Origin: an uncultured Oscillospiraceae bacterium
GTDB lineage: Bacteria; Bacillota; Clostridia; Oscillospirales; Oscillospiraceae
Reading direction: 5' to 3'
DNA: 56,232 nt
Assembly: GCA_944385665.1 (NCBI GenBank)
Contig: CALWYB010000011.1
Span: 1 to 56,232 of the forward strand
Both the position numbers and the translations under genes were made by a program. Of this stretch, positions 14,701 to 19,025 are shown piece after piece (within the stretch, counting starts at the first letter, position 1; every line of letters begins with the position of its first letter). The notes beneath the pieces were generated by a model. That model was given only the letters and a program-made list of their open reading frames with translations, was not told the origin of the DNA and made no database searches.

Positions 14701-15534
14701 ATGAGTTTTAAGATTGTTGTGGACAGCTGCTGTGACCTGACGCCCCAGATGTTGAAGGATCCCTGCTTTGTCAAGGTGCCGCTGACCATTCACTCCAATG
14801 GCAGCATCTTTGTGGATGACGATACTTTCGACCAGGCTGATCTGCTCTGGTCCATGAAGCAGAGCGAGCAGGCCCCCTCCACCGCCTGCCCCTCTCCCCA
14901 GGCCTACCTGGACGCCTATCAGGGAGCGGAGGACGTGTACGTGGTCACCCTGTCCGCCCTGCTCAGCGGCTCCCACAACAGCGCCGAGCAGGCCAAGGTG
15001 CTGCTGGAGGAGGATGAGCCTGACATCAACGTCCATGTGTTCAACTCCTGTTCCGCCTCCTCCGGGGAGGTGCTGGTGGCCCTGAAGATCCGGGAGCTGG
15101 CCCAGTCCGGCATGCCCTTTAAAAAGGTGGTGCGGGAGGTAGAGCAGTATATCTACCAGATGCAGACCCTGTTTGTGCTGGAGTCCCTGGAGAACCTGCG
15201 GAAGAACGGCCGCCTCACCAAGCTTCAGGCGGTGGTCACCGGGGCGCTGAAGATCAAGCTCTTTATGGGCGGCACGCCCGAGGGGGAGATCTGTAAGCTG
15301 GGACAGGCCCTGTCCATGAAGCAGGCTCTGAACAAGCTGGTGGACAAGATCGCATCCGATCCCAACCACACGGGCCGCAGGCTGGTTATCTGTCACTGCA
15401 ACTGCAAGGACCGGGCCGAGAAGGTGCGGGAGCAGATCCAGGCCAAGTGCCAGGTGGGCGAGATCCTGGTGGTGAGTGCCGGCGGGATCACCAGCGTGTA
15501 CGCCAACGACGGAGGCATTGTGGTGGCCTATTGA
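14701..15534 (+). CDS. DegV family fatty-acid-binding protein
   Basis: 277 residues beginning MSFKIVVDSCCDLTPQML, the characteristic DegV opening (VDSxxDL). The family binds long-chain fatty acids; some members are FakB subunits presenting fatty acids to kinase FakA. VVTLSALLSGSHNSA near 82-96 corresponds to the family SSxLSGTYQSA stretch, and SLENLRKNGRLTK to the LExLKKGGRI stretch. The ATG at 14701 follows GGAG by nine bases; in-frame TTG 14686 and ATG 14692 are less likely. No FakA is nearby, so the precise role is open. Followed by a terminator. Confidence 0.9.
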   Translation: MSFKIVVDSCCDLTPQMLKDPCFVKVPLTIHSNGSIFVDDDTFDQADLLWSMKQSEQAPSTACPSPQAYLDAYQGAEDVYVVTLSALLSGSHNSAEQAKVLLEEDEPDINVHVFNSCSASSGEVLVALKIRELAQSGMPFKKVVREVEQYIYQMQTLFVLESLENLRKNGRLTKLQAVVTGALKIKLFMGGTPEGEICKLGQALSMKQALNKLVDKIASDPNHTGRRLVICHCNCKDRAEKVREQIQAKCQVGEILVVSAGGITSVYANDGGIVVAY

Positions 15535-15559
15535 CAAGGAAAGAATTTCGGGTACACTT

Positions 15560-15600
15560 ATAGAGGTGTGAGGGTTGCTCACACCTCTATTTATATATAA
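15560..15600 (+). terminator. terminator after the DegV-family gene
   Basis: Perfect 13-bp stem ATAGAGGTGTGAG / CTCACACCTCTAT (15560-15572, 15578-15590), loop GGTTG, then TTATATATAA. Confidence 0.75.
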
Positions 15601-15620
15601 GATTGCTGGAGGGGATCGCG

Positions 15621-16199
15621 ATGACGAGAGATCAGGCCTGGGCCCTGCTGACCCAGTATAATAAGGAGCCGTTCCATCTGCGCCACGCCATTACAGTGGA
15701 GCATGTGATGGGCTGGTTTGCCCAGAAGCTGGGCTACGGGGAGGAGAAGGAATTCTGGTCCCAGGTGGGCCTGCTCCACGATCTGGACTTTGAAATGTGG
15801 CCCGACGAGCACTGCATCAAGTCTCAGGAGCTGATGCGTGAGGCCGGGGTGGACGAGGCCATAATCCGAGCCACCGCCAGCCACAGCTGGGGCAGCCATG
15901 TAGACATCAAGCCCGAGCACGAGATGGAGAAGGTGCTCTTTGCCTGCGACGAGCTCACCGGGCTCATCGGCGCGGCCGCCCTGATGCGCCCCTCCAAGAG
16001 TGTGTCCGACATGGAGCTTAAGTCCCTGAAAAAGAAGTTTAAGGATAAAAAGTTTGCCGCCGGCTGCTCCCGGGATGTGATCGCCCAGGGGGCCGAGCTG
16101 CTGGGCTGGGAGCTGGACAAGCTGCTGGACCTGACTTTGTCCGCCATGCGGGAGGAAGAGGGAGCCATTGAAGCGGCCGTGGCCGCCCTGCCCAACTGA
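15621..16199 (+). CDS. HD-domain (HDIG-type) protein, putative phosphohydrolase
   Basis: 192 residues. Metal-binding residues of an HD hydrolase are visible: His in FHLRHAITVEHVM near 18-30, the HD pair in GLLHDLDFE near 50-58, a later His in TASHSWGSH and an Asp in FACDELTGL. Members often act on nucleotides or small phosphoesters; the substrate here cannot be told. The ATG at 15621 follows GGAGGGG; an in-frame TTG at 15603 lies before that site. The C-terminal part is Lys/Leu-rich helix. Stands alone between a terminator and a promoter. Confidence 0.85.
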   Translation: MTRDQAWALLTQYNKEPFHLRHAITVEHVMGWFAQKLGYGEEKEFWSQVGLLHDLDFEMWPDEHCIKSQELMREAGVDEAIIRATASHSWGSHVDIKPEHEMEKVLFACDELTGLIGAAALMRPSKSVSDMELKSLKKKFKDKKFAAGCSRDVIAQGAELLGWELDKLLDLTLSAMREEEGAIEAAVAALPN

Positions 16200-16215
16200 A
16201 AAGGGGAAAATGGGG

Positions 16216-16244
16216 TTGACAACCACATTTTGCCGTGCTACTAT
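16216..16244 (+). promoter_or_regulatory. promoter of the decarboxylase beta-subunit leader
   Basis: TTGACA (16216-16221), exactly 17 bp, TACTAT (16239-16244). The predicted start, near 16251, coincides with the first base of the structured leader. Confidence 0.82.
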
Positions 16245-16250
16245 GAACCT

Positions 16251-16374
16251 GCAAAGGGGAGTAGTCGGCACAGCGGATGCTGTGCGGTAGGACCAACAGC
16301 ATGGGGGGAGCGTTCCCCCTGGTTTTGCCTGAAATGACCAGACCTGCGTTCCATTGGGAACGCAGGTCTTTTTT
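16251..16374 (+). ncRNA. riboswitch-like structured leader with terminator, resembling yybP-ykoY (Mn2+)
   Basis: A closing helix GCAAA (16251-16255) / TTTGC (16324-16328) encloses GGGGAGTAG (16256-16264). Inside are a hairpin GCACAGC-GGAT-GCTGTGC (16268-16285) and a second arm, ACC/GGT then GGGGGA / TCCCCC (16304-16319), with an internal loop around ACAGCATG. After a short linker comes a perfect 13-bp terminator AGACCTGCGTTCC / GGAACGCAGGTCT (16340-16369) with TTTTTT. GGGGAGTAG at the base of the first helix and a three-way plan resemble the manganese yybP-ykoY class. The downstream sodium-pump gene would be an unusual target, so a different ion sensor is possible. Confidence 0.55.
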
Positions 16375-16458
16375 CTTACCCGTTCAGGCATAGTGCTGCG
16401 GTACAGCGCCGCTGATCTCCAGGGAAAGCCGACGCAGATTACAAGGGAGGAACGGAAC

Positions 16459-17604
16459 ATGGAATTTTTGTGGGAAAGTCTGCTGGCCATAACCTGGCAG
16501 CAGCTGGTCATGTATGTGGTGGGCGGGCTGCTCATCTGGCTGGCCATTGACAAGGGATTTGAGCCCGCTCTGCTCATGCCCATGGGCTTTGGCGCTATTC
16601 TGGTGAACCTGCCCTCGTCGGGGGTCATTGACCAGATGACCGCCGGGGTGGGGGAGACCCACGGTATCATCCAGTGGCTCTTTGAAGTGGGCATCAGCGC
16701 CAGTGAGGCCATGCCCATTCTGCTGTTTATCGGAATCGGAGCCATGATCGACTTCGGCCCTCTGCTGGCCAACCCCAAGCTGTTTTTGTGCGGCGCTGCC
16801 GCCCAGGCGGGCATCTTCCTCACCATCCTGCTGGCAGCTGCCCTGGGCTTCGATATGAAGGACGCCGCCTCCATCGGTATCATCGGCGCCGCCGACGGCC
16901 CCACCTCCATCCTGGTCTCCCAGGTGCTCCACTCCAACTATGTGGGCGCCATCGCTGTGGCCGCCTACTCCTATATGGCGCTGGTCCCCATTATCCAGCC
17001 CTTTGCCATCAAGCTGGTGACCACCAGGAAGGACCGGGCCATGCGGATGCCCTATCGGGCTCAGGGCGTATCCAAGCGGCTGCGCATCCTGTTCCCCATT
17101 ATCGTCTCCGTGATCGCCGGGCTGGTAGCTCCCTCCTCGGTGGCTCTGGTGGGCTTCCTCATGTTCGGCAACCTGATCCGGGAGTGCGGGGTGCTCACCA
17201 CTCTGTCCAAGACCGCCCAGAACGAGCTGGCCAACCTCATCACCCTGCTGCTGGGCATTACCATCTCCTTCTCCATGAAGGCGGACCAGTTTGTCAAACC
17301 CGAAACGCTGCTTATTATGGTACTGGGTCTGGTGGCCTTTGTGCTGGATTCGGTGGTAGGCGTGCTGTTTGTGAAGGTGATCAACCTCTTTACCCCCAAG
17401 AACAAGATCAACCCCATGGTGGGTGCGGCCGGCATCTCCGCCTTCCCCATGTCTTCCCGGGTCATTGAGAAGCTGGGCCAGGAGGCCGACCCTCAGAACC
17501 ACCTGCTCATGCACGCGGTGGCCGCCAACGTGTCCGGGCAGATCGCCTCGGTGGTGGCCGGCGGCGTGGTTTTGCAGTACTGTGCCACCCATATGATCGG
17601 CTGA
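16459..17604 (+). CDS. sodium ion-translocating decarboxylase, beta subunit
   Basis: Integral membrane subunit (OadB/GcdB/MmdB family) that couples decarboxylation of a carboxybiotin to Na+ export. 381 residues from the ATG at 16459 (MEFLWESLLAITWQQ), with GGGAGGAACGGAAC before it. About ten hydrophobic segments. Hallmarks are GFGAILVNLP near 38-47, IGAMIDFGPL (Asp in a membrane segment), the family stretch IGIIGAADGPTSI near 139-151 and NPMVGAAGISAFPMSSRV. Which decarboxylase (oxaloacetate, glutaconyl-CoA, methylmalonyl-CoA) cannot be told because no alpha or biotin-carrier gene is adjacent. The structured leader probably controls it. Confidence 0.92.
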   Translation: MEFLWESLLAITWQQLVMYVVGGLLIWLAIDKGFEPALLMPMGFGAILVNLPSSGVIDQMTAGVGETHGIIQWLFEVGISASEAMPILLFIGIGAMIDFGPLLANPKLFLCGAAAQAGIFLTILLAAALGFDMKDAASIGIIGAADGPTSILVSQVLHSNYVGAIAVAAYSYMALVPIIQPFAIKLVTTRKDRAMRMPYRAQGVSKRLRILFPIIVSVIAGLVAPSSVALVGFLMFGNLIRECGVLTTLSKTAQNELANLITLLLGITISFSMKADQFVKPETLLIMVLGLVAFVLDSVVGVLFVKVINLFTPKNKINPMVGAAGISAFPMSSRVIEKLGQEADPQNHLLMHAVAANVSGQIASVVAGGVVLQYCATHMIG

Positions 17605-17620
17605 GAATAGGAGGAGAACC

Positions 17621-17749
17621 ATGAACTGGACCAATATAGAACAGGCCCTGGAGATGATGGGCCAGGGGATGCTGGGCATCTTTGTGGTGCTGGGCGTGAT
17701 CGCCCTGCTGGTTGCTCTGCTGCAGAAGCTGGACAACCGAAAGAAGTAA
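17621..17749 (+). CDS. OadG-related small membrane subunit (42 residues)
   Basis: Begins MNWTNIEQALEMMGQGMLGI. It has one transmembrane helix (about residues 18-35) and a short basic tail ending in KLDNRKK. GGAGGAG precedes the ATG, 17 bases after the beta-subunit stop. Gamma subunits of sodium-pump decarboxylases have one N-terminal helix followed by a metal-binding tail. Here the helix is kept and the tail is nearly absent, the plan of the small OadG-related subunits encoded beside beta subunits. It probably assembles with the beta subunit in the membrane. Too short for many gene finders. Confidence 0.75.
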   Translation: MNWTNIEQALEMMGQGMLGIFVVLGVIALLVALLQKLDNRKK

Positions 17750-17770
17750 CAAGGAAATAAAACAAGGCAG

Positions 17771-17797
17771 CAGCTCCGCTTCGGCGGAGCTGTTTTT
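17771..17797 (+). terminator. terminator after the decarboxylase genes
   Basis: Stem CAGCTCCGC / GCGGAGCTG (17771-17779, 17784-17792) with a TTCG tetraloop, then TTTTT. Confidence 0.93.
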
Positions 17798-18062
17798 ATG
17801 GAAACCGATCGTCAGGAGGCAAACCGGCATTGGTGAAAATGAAGTAGGGCAAATGTGCACAAAAAACTCTGATTTTTTTAAAATTCATCATTTTTTGCAG
17901 TAGAACAGAAAAAATCAACCAGGAAAATAAGGAAAGTATAGTGAAAATTGCCCTTGTTTCCGACAGCTCAATTAGTTACAATGTGGTAACAAAAGTAACA
18001 ACAAGTTGCTTTTGATGTCATAATTGTTGACATAATTTTGTAACTAAATAGGAGTGAAGACA
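17798..18062 (+). promoter_or_regulatory. AT-rich intergenic region upstream of the cell-wall hydrolase gene
   Basis: 265 bases, much more AT-rich than the flanking genes, with no credible gene. Two short dyads lie near its end: GTTAC-N6-GTAAC (17975-17990) and TGTCA-N7-TGACA (18016-18032), with extra GTAAC copies nearby (17993-17998, 18040-18044). TTGACA at 18027-18032 has no -10 at 17 bp. No sigma-A promoter is convincing; an alternative sigma factor or an activator-dependent promoter is possible. Confidence 0.4.
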
Positions 18063-19025
18063 ATGACACGAAAGCTGTTTTCGTTGACGCTGAGCGCCTT
18101 TGCCTTGCTTCTCCTGATGGGAGCCGGAGTGGAGCAGGACCCCGCTGCGGCACCGCAAACCGAGAAAGGGACCCGTGGGGCCCAGCTGGTTGAGACCAGC
18201 GAAACCCACGATCAGGAAGCAGACCAGGCGCATCTGGTGACCGCGGTAGCGGGCTCCAACGTGCTGACCTGGGTGGAGGACATGGACCACACCCTGACGG
18301 TGGACGGTAAGCCGGTGTCCTCTGAGGTGAACAAGACGCAGAAGAGCGGAAAAACTTATGTTGCTCTGGCCCCCATGGTGGAGGAGCTGGATGCCTCCGC
18401 CGCCGTCCGCTGGGACGGCAGCAGCAACACCGTGACGATGAGCAGCAGCAAGCTGACGCTGACCGCTAAGGTGGGACAGCTGTATCTGGTGGCCAACGGC
18501 CGTTACCTGTACATCCCCGAGGGGGTGCAGCTGATCAATGGCCGCGTGACCGTTCCCCTGTCCGTGCTGACTGAGGCCTTCGACGCCTCCCTGACCTGGA
18601 ACGCCTCCACCGGTGTGGTGGCCGTGACCCGGGGCAGCGGAGCCCTGACCCCTGCCGACCAGTACTACAATCAGGACGACCTGTTCTGGCTGTCCCGTAT
18701 CATCTACGCCGAGAGCGGCAACCAGCCCCTGGAGGGCATGATGGCGGTGGGCAACGTGGTGCTCAACCGGGTCAACGACCCCATCTACCCCAACACCATC
18801 GTGAGTGTGCTGGCCCAGAAGAACCAGTTCACCACCTACCAGTCCGGTAAGCTGGCCAACCGCACCCCCAATGAGAACAGCGTCATCGCTGCCAAGCTGG
18901 TGCTGGACGGCGGTGTGGTGGAGGAGACCCTGGGAGCCACCCACTTTGACTCCACCGGCAACAGCTGGGCCTCCCGGCATAAAACCTGTGTGGCCGTCAT
19001 CGGCGCCCACTATTTCTACGCGTAA
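18063..19025 (+). CDS. exported cell-wall hydrolase, SleB/CwlJ-type catalytic domain with stalk-like N-terminal domain
   Basis: 320 residues. A signal peptide (MTRKLFSLTLSAFALLLLMG) is followed by an acidic linker. Residues about 75-190 resemble the copper-amine-oxidase-N-like domain common on Clostridia envelope proteins (VDGKPV, YVALAPMVEEL, GRVTVPLSVLTEAF). The C-terminal 120 residues are a hydrolase-2 domain: LFWLSRIIYAESGNQP with the catalytic-type Glu, AVGNVVLNRVNDP, and THFDSTGN near the end. Members cleave peptidoglycan, often spore cortex. Start ATG 18063 follows AGGAGTGAAGACA; GTG 18054 is too near the site. Single gene ended by a terminator. Confidence 0.88.
   Translation: MTRKLFSLTLSAFALLLLMGAGVEQDPAAAPQTEKGTRGAQLVETSETHDQEADQAHLVTAVAGSNVLTWVEDMDHTLTVDGKPVSSEVNKTQKSGKTYVALAPMVEELDASAAVRWDGSSNTVTMSSSKLTLTAKVGQLYLVANGRYLYIPEGVQLINGRVTVPLSVLTEAFDASLTWNASTGVVAVTRGSGALTPADQYYNQDDLFWLSRIIYAESGNQPLEGMMAVGNVVLNRVNDPIYPNTIVSVLAQKNQFTTYQSGKLANRTPNENSVIAAKLVLDGGVVEETLGATHFDSTGNSWASRHKTCVAVIGAHYFYA

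Follow-up and report, generated by a model that had tools for sequence, protein, structure and literature searches.

What is a leader that looks like a metal riboswitch doing ahead of a gene for a sodium-pump subunit? The window (the whole 56,232-nucleotide stretch that was analysed, from an uncultured Oscillospiraceae bacterium) has such a leader on its forward strand, upstream of a homologue of oadB, which encodes the beta subunit of the oxaloacetate decarboxylase Na+ pump. The original prediction noted that the leader resembles the manganese-sensing yybP-ykoY class, and that either the target is unusual or the RNA senses another ion or a metabolite. Our best explanation of the locus as a whole, to which we assign a probability of about 0.8, is that a transcriptional ON switch of the Mn2+ class precedes a manganese-linked pair of proteins, an orphan OadB and its OadG-like partner.

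Architecture and class of the leader

A sigma-70-type promoter lies at 16216-16244, with TTGACA at 16216-16221, a spacer of 17 nt, and TACTAT, preceded by TG, at 16239-16244. (The scan gave five promoter-like sites in 15500-18100; shuffled sequences gave 1.1 on average, with a standard deviation of 1.0.) The aptamer spans 16251-16353. Its switch helix P1.1 pairs AGG (16255-16257) with CCU (16343-16345), in both the alignment and the fold. The L1 motif GGGGAGTAG is at 16256-16264; across 39 homologous leaders, its first eight bases are invariant and the final G is present in at least 90%. P1.2 pairs 16264-16267 with 16335-16338 and is followed by the P2 hairpin (16268-16285; 16268-16274 pairs with 16279-16285). 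The P3 arm (16286-16329) consists of P3a (16286-16294 with 16321-16329) and P3b (16303-16307 with 16315-16319), and the metal-sensing loop L3, ACAGCAU, is at 16296-16302. Finally, AGACCT (16340-16345) is common to the aptamer, as the 3' strand of L1 and P1.1, and to the 5' arm of an intrinsic terminator (16340-16374), which is a perfect 13-bp helix (16340-16352 with 16357-16369) with a T-run at 16369-16374. The promoter, the L1 motif, the two internal hairpins and the terminator had all been recognized in the original prediction. The closing helix that it described is also present, but it is weak, with only three base pairs.

The predicted structure is unusually stable and is conserved. The fold of 16245-16376 has an energy of -64.5 kcal/mol, as compared to -44.8 ± 4.15 kcal/mol for shuffled sequences (z = -4.75; none of 200 shuffles was as low). 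Aligning other oadB leaders, as had been suggested, did reveal covarying pairs. From a set of 65 leaders (63 cut out by pattern, the window's leader, and L003), the alignment includes 39; near copies and leaders that were hard to align were dropped by eye. Over the 23 pairs of P1.1, P1.2, P2 and P3a, 96.5% of cells are paired, and 14 pairs show changes on both sides, which only 3 of 500 shuffles reached. Cells with two-sided changes number 119, versus an average of 35.3 in shuffles, none of which (0 of 500) had as many. Two-sided changes occur in 5 of 7 pairs of P2, 7 of 9 pairs of P3a, and 1 of 4 pairs of P1.2, where 98.7% of cells are paired; for P1.1, 98.3% are paired. (P3b comes from the fold and was left out of these counts.) If the consensus structure is slid along the alignment, at most 39% of cells are paired in any position.

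To place the leader in a class we used covariance models in both directions. R2 was built from 13 exporter-type leaders and no oadB leaders; according to Pfam, the genes behind them are nine mntP (Mntp), three P-type ATPases (E1-E2 ATPase) and one CaCA transporter (Na_Ca_ex). (There were 17 exporter leaders, and L011, L012, L013 and L016 were dropped as hard to align.) R1 was built from the 39 oadB leaders, including the window's. In the 56-kb window, with E up to 10, the sole match of R2 is the leader, at 16251-16353 (61.4 bits, E = 1e-14; E-values from these home-made models are rough). R2 also finds one site in each of 68 of 80 oadB loci (the best 80 of 166 related loci), directly upstream of oadB, with 45-282 nt between the end of the model and the OadB protein match. 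With E up to 1, R1 recovers 67 of these 68 sites and gives an extra weak second match in L062. Conversely, R1 recognizes exporter leaders outside its training set: the mntP leader L017 scores 68.9 bits, L014 56.3 bits and L015 55.4 bits, while L013 and L016 reach only 14-16 bits. In the window's own genome, R1 gives 91.3 bits for the window's leader (which is in the training set), and its sole other strong site is directly ahead of mntP (72.3 bits, and a similarly rough E of 4.5e-16).

Rfam is much less informative. At gathering thresholds no Rfam model matches the leader, and with E up to 10 the only match there is to sau-5971, which we consider spurious. The yybP-ykoY model itself (RF00080, gathering cut-off 45 bits) does not list the leader at E up to 10. 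In the scan with all of Rfam, RF00080 gave 35.5, 34.0 and 33.6 bits for related oadB leaders, all under the cut-off, and it was absent for the leaders of L087, L089, L091 and L095. Of 40 genomes searched with RF00080, four have their oadB leader listed at E < 1e-6, and none, including the window's own with its mntP leader, has a match over the cut-off; with E up to 10, the oadB leader is listed, by coordinates, in 15 of the 39 genomes other than the window's own. Because the own-genome mntP leader is likewise absent from the RF00080 list at E up to 10, we attribute the miss of the window's leader to insensitivity of the model here. Similarly, over 120 genomes of the family, and with stricter filters, RF00080 had matches (E up to 0.001) in eight and none over the cut-off, so it is a blunt tool in this lineage. 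(Across the order, 55 of the 117 genomes searched have sites for the 13-sequence model R2; these genomes are a different set from the 120.) RF00080 thus misses the class in the genomes that we examined.

The covariance models in both directions, the covariation, and the sub-threshold matches of RF00080 are the basis for assigning the leader to the yybP-ykoY (Mn2+) class, as the original prediction had suspected, and we regard the RNA part of our explanation as well supported. Like the yybP-ykoY leaders at mntP, the window's leader has the L1 motif GGGGAGUAG, the L3 adenosine, conserved P1.2, P2 and P3, the GACNAGAC strand, and the overlap of terminator and aptamer. It differs in P1.1, which has five base pairs in the exporter model instead of three, and in the gene behind it. 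It also has about six unpaired nucleotides in place of the fourth helix, and so lacks the four-way junction of the solved structures. We do not treat this junction as defining, because the own-genome mntP leader (also with about six nucleotides there) and other exporter leaders in the R2 alignment are without it as well; L011-L013 do seem to have a fourth helix.

We also considered a sodium riboswitch. The Na+-I (DUF1646) family is present in Rfam, and no Na+ riboswitch family matched the leader, either at gathering thresholds or with E up to 10, so we dropped this reading. As described in PMC9337991, an oxaloacetate decarboxylase gene occasionally has a Na+-I riboswitch ahead of it. Such RNAs are similar to our leader in being ion riboswitches ahead of a decarboxylase-pump gene, but they are built on another plan, with two extended helices P1 and P2 (PMC9337991).

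Metal site and proposed switching

In known structures, Mn2+ sits between L1 and L3, an invariable adenosine contributes its N7, and the weak switch helix P1.1 is stabilised by Mn2+ (PMC6754395). The adenosine's context is ACA48UACU in Xanthomonas oryzae and UCA41AUUC in Lactococcus lactis (PMC6754395). In the window's leader, A16298 aligns to these two positions. As judged from the alignment, the Mn-sensing adenosine is kept, while the surrounding loop differs: L3 reads ACAGCAU, versus ACAUACU in the own-genome mntP leader (GCAU instead of UACU after the adenosine). The pattern C[AG][AT]CA is found in 67 of 68 oadB leaders (the cut-off L071 also reads CAACA), and by pattern count, L3 from the sensing adenosine on is AGCAU in 32 of 68. 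Mn2+ is likely the ligand of the leader.

The terminator and the complete aptamer compete for the same bases. For 16251-16376, the fold with the terminator has -62.3 kcal/mol and the fold with the complete aptamer has -50.7 kcal/mol; for 16251-16352, before the 3' arm of the terminator is made, the aptamer, with -40.0 kcal/mol, comes close to the best fold, with -43.2 kcal/mol. (These energies exclude metal binding.) The arrangement is conserved: 65 of 68 leaders have a hairpin plus T-run that starts within 4 nt of an AGAC at the leader's 3' end. (For L074 and L076 we took a later AGAC; L053, L075 and L085 gave no such terminator.) Such a conserved overlap is the plan expected of an ON switch that works by antitermination.

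We propose that when metal is low, the 13-bp terminator would claim AGACCU (16340-16345), the aptamer's 3' strand, and stop transcription near 16370. Mn2+ would dock L3 (via A16298) onto L1 (GGGGAGUAG) and hold the weak P1.1 together. The terminator would then be without its foot beside the T-run, so that polymerase would read into oadB and the gene for the 42-amino-acid partner. The L. lactis member of the class is termed an ON switch in PMC9190785; contrary to our reading, one review refers to manganese riboswitches as OFF switches (PMC11477304).

Distribution of the leader and the genes behind the class

Is the leader peculiar to this locus, or does it mark any oadB? Neither appears to be the case. 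A DNA search of 200 genomes of the family gave matches in six, with true oadB leaders in the window's own genome, G128, G039 and G119. (In G119 the leader lies at the end of one contig, and the contig that carries oadB starts within the leader. The matches L006, in the interior of a helicase-like reading frame, and L007, at a terminator, are chance matches.) A search that used four aligned OadB proteins gave 166 related loci, and we kept the best 80; GGAGTAG-type leaders lie upstream of most of them, and a pattern sufficed to extract 63. With R2 sites in 68 of these 80 loci, we rejected the reading of the leader as a peculiarity of the window. To see if it goes with oadB in general, we examined 20 oadB genes from 17 related genomes, including the window's own. 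Ten share 86-100% identity with the window's gene, and all of these have a GGGAGTA leader; the other ten are closer to the operonic oadB, and none of them has one (three have under 500 nt of upstream sequence).

Among the best 80 of 166 loci, 12 have no R2 match. Ten of the 12 have upstream sequence but no recognized leader, L073 has no upstream sequence, and L088 is cut by a contig end. Scanning the ten leaderless loci with Rfam gave no riboswitch; at L083 a tRNA is directly upstream of oadB, and an Rfam match at L097 is due to chance. We noticed that L084 and L094 have another conserved upstream element in common (CAATTTCATAAACTTGTCAT ... ACGTGCATATTCA ... GTGTACGTTTTC), with no match in Rfam.

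For an unselected view, we searched 117 genomes from the order with R2, which gave 80 sites in 55 genomes. We sorted the genes behind the 79 sites other than the window's by blastp against nine reference proteins: 33 are P-type ATPases, 16 are MntP, 16 are orphan OadB, six are CaCA transporters, one is UPF0016/GDT1, and seven are none of these. Exporter-type genes (MntP, P-type ATPase, CaCA or GDT1) are thus behind 56 of the 79 sites, and operonic OadB is behind none. Including the window's, orphan oadB is at 17 of 80 sites, in ten families of the order, even though the model was built without oadB leaders. An unusual target was one of the two options in the original prediction. We found no published report of this target, but the class is common and widespread at orphan oadB in this order.

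The 16 other orphan-oadB sites are in 16 genomes from nine families other than the window's own. At one of them (L199), the leader resembles the window's. The remaining 15, from eight families, have a different type of leader, mostly with a longer P1.1 and a GUCAAUACGG-like L3, and several have L3 types that resemble those of CaCA and ATPase leaders. Because 15 of the 16 have other L3 types, orphan oadB is linked to the riboswitch class as a whole rather than to a single subtype, and a pairing of oadB with one particular L3 variant is unsupported.

At two of the seven sites with other genes, Pfam identifies one gene as a Na+/Pi cotransporter and the other as a CitMHS transporter, so targets of the class extend beyond exporters. 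The Na+/Pi cotransporter, which has a PhoU domain (PF02690), is behind one of two R2 sites that are separated by about 1 kb in G266 (contig C21, 23195-24381; L232 and L210); the reading frame behind the other site is presumably SPFH-like, and both are unusual targets for the class. The site ahead of the CitMHS/ArsB-like transporter (L235, in G261, contig C63) scores 37.6 bits.

The orphan OadB and its possible role in manganese homeostasis

As originally described, the leader is followed by a beta-subunit gene and then by a small subunit. oadB (16459-17604, forward strand) encodes 381 amino acids and matches TIGR01109 with 402.1 bits (cut-off 190.6) and PF03977 with 488.9 bits. The next gene (17621-17749, forward strand) encodes a 42-amino-acid protein related to OadG, which matches NF040909 with 33.1 bits (cut-off 25) and PF04277 with 22.1 bits, under its cut-off of 27. 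We saw no alpha or biotin gene beside oadB. An OadG-like motif lies 3' of oadB in 76 of the best 80 of 166 loci; L047 and L051 stop at contig or stretch ends, and L070 and L074 gave none. We also noticed that the OadG-like partners of L072, L075, L043, L041 and L066 have a GGADGPT or GGADAPT stretch, a copy of OadB's own ion-binding hairpin tip (the D203 motif).

The window's OadB is homologous to the beta subunit of the oxaloacetate decarboxylase Na+ pump (6IVA/6IWW; phmmer E = 1.8e-96), including D203, S382 and N412. It differs in belonging to a separate clade, in having Thr instead of Arg304, in having no adjoining alpha subunit or biotin carrier, and in its tail-less partner of 42 amino acids. 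In a quick tree, 81 orphans (the window's and the best 80 of 166 related loci) and nine operonic beta subunits form separate clades with long branches between them (SH-aLRT 100). In the Salmonella or Klebsiella enzymes, E40, D203, Y229, R304, N311, N373, G377, S382, N412 and S419 matter (PMC7274780). D203, Y229, N373, G377 and S382 are conserved in 81 of 81 orphans; E40, N412 and S419 are each in 80 of 81, with one gap each; and N311 is in 58 of 81. Arg304 (Salmonella numbering, StOAD) is present in all nine operonic proteins versus 15 of 81 orphans. Loss of gamma residues 61-84 in StOAD severely reduces binding of alpha (PMC7274780), and by its length, the 42-amino-acid partner has no room for an alpha-binding gamma tail. 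Given the lack of an adjoining alpha, the short partner and R304T, the window's beta subunit appears to lack the features for partnership with alpha. The same genome encodes a second beta subunit, which follows the genes for a biotin-carrier protein and an OAD_gamma/biotin protein, and elsewhere it has alpha-type (PYC_OADA) matches in two pieces at contig ends.

CaCA members such as MneA export manganese. Other types of manganese exporters include MntP, CDF, P-type ATPases, UPF0016 and TerC, several of them induced via riboswitches (PMC9334652). MntP, P-type ATPases, CaCA and UPF0016/GDT1 proteins belong to families other than OadB, and in this order of bacteria their genes, too, follow leaders of the class. 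That this class of leader also precedes known manganese exporters suggests a role for orphan OadB in manganese excess. We infer that Mn2+ induces the orphan pair and that the pair takes part in manganese homeostasis; its simplest role would be that of an exporter no longer working with a decarboxylase alpha subunit. Export of Mn2+ by the pair is plausible, and the locus suggests that in gut bacteria, an orphan pump subunit handles excess manganese rather than the decarboxylation of oxaloacetate. A broader proposal, for which we would give slightly less than even odds, is that orphan OadB and its partner of about 40 amino acids are an unrecognized family of Mn2+ efflux proteins: an alpha-less pump that has become a Na+- or H+-coupled elevator exchanger, with Mn2+ riboswitches turning on its expression across many gut Clostridia.

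Alternatively, the leader could be a Mn2+ switch while OadB does not move Mn2+: it might be a Na+ (or H+) pump or valve used under manganese stress, or it might serve a distant alpha whose carboxyltransferase uses a divalent metal. The Na+-site residues are kept in the orphans, the genome does have alpha-type matches elsewhere, and the class has targets that are not exporters, so we take this possibility seriously, although it falls well short of even odds. It fits poorly with the separate beta subunit encoded behind biotin-carrier and OAD_gamma proteins, with a partner that lacks the alpha-binding tail, with the loss of Arg304 from most orphans, and with the 56 of 79 sites that precede MntP, P-type ATPase, CaCA or GDT1 genes.

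It also seems possible, but unlikely, that the RNA derives from the yybP-ykoY class but has changed its ligand to Na+, Mg2+ or some other metal, which would put a homologue of a Na+ pump under the control of an ion other than manganese. This is what is left of the earlier suggestion of another sensor. Variants of yybP with altered specificity, some perhaps sensing other divalent ions, may well exist (PMC7266159), and oxaloacetate decarboxylase genes occasionally do have Na+-I riboswitches (PMC9337991). The target is a Na+-pump homologue with its Na+-site residues kept, and L3 has the AGCAU form in 32 of 68 oadB leaders, versus UACU at the own-genome mntP. However, the sensing adenosine and L1 are kept, the orphan-oadB leaders of eight other families have other L3 types (15 of 16 outside sites), and no Na+ riboswitch family in Rfam matches. 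Lastly, the leader might be a mere intrinsic terminator or attenuator that resembles yybP-ykoY by chance. That Rfam does not report it would fit, but given the covariance models in both directions, the covariation, and the occurrence of the class ahead of orphan oadB in ten families, we consider this very improbable.

If the orphan pair is indeed linked to manganese, then many genes annotated as "sodium ion-translocating decarboxylase subunit beta" would be manganese-stress transporters instead of metabolic sodium pumps, and the known families of Mn2+ exporters might grow by one. More generally, the riboswitch class indicates what a mis-annotated transporter probably handles. If the ligand does differ, the leader would be a natural variant for asking whether yybP RNAs sense other metals. 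Our literature search, which did not extend to the class's founding descriptions, found no link between yybP-ykoY or manganese riboswitches and oadB, and nothing on manganese efflux in Oscillospiraceae; for yybP-ykoY together with oxaloacetate decarboxylase, it returned only PMC9337991, which concerns the Na+ class.

The leader is not the only riboregulator in the window. At gathering thresholds, the sole Rfam RNA is a T-box leader on the reverse strand (RF00230, 12855-13091, 106.9 bits), which precedes a gene for a 584-amino-acid protein similar to 2-isopropylmalate synthase (HMGL-like, IPMS_D2 and LeuA_dimer domains).
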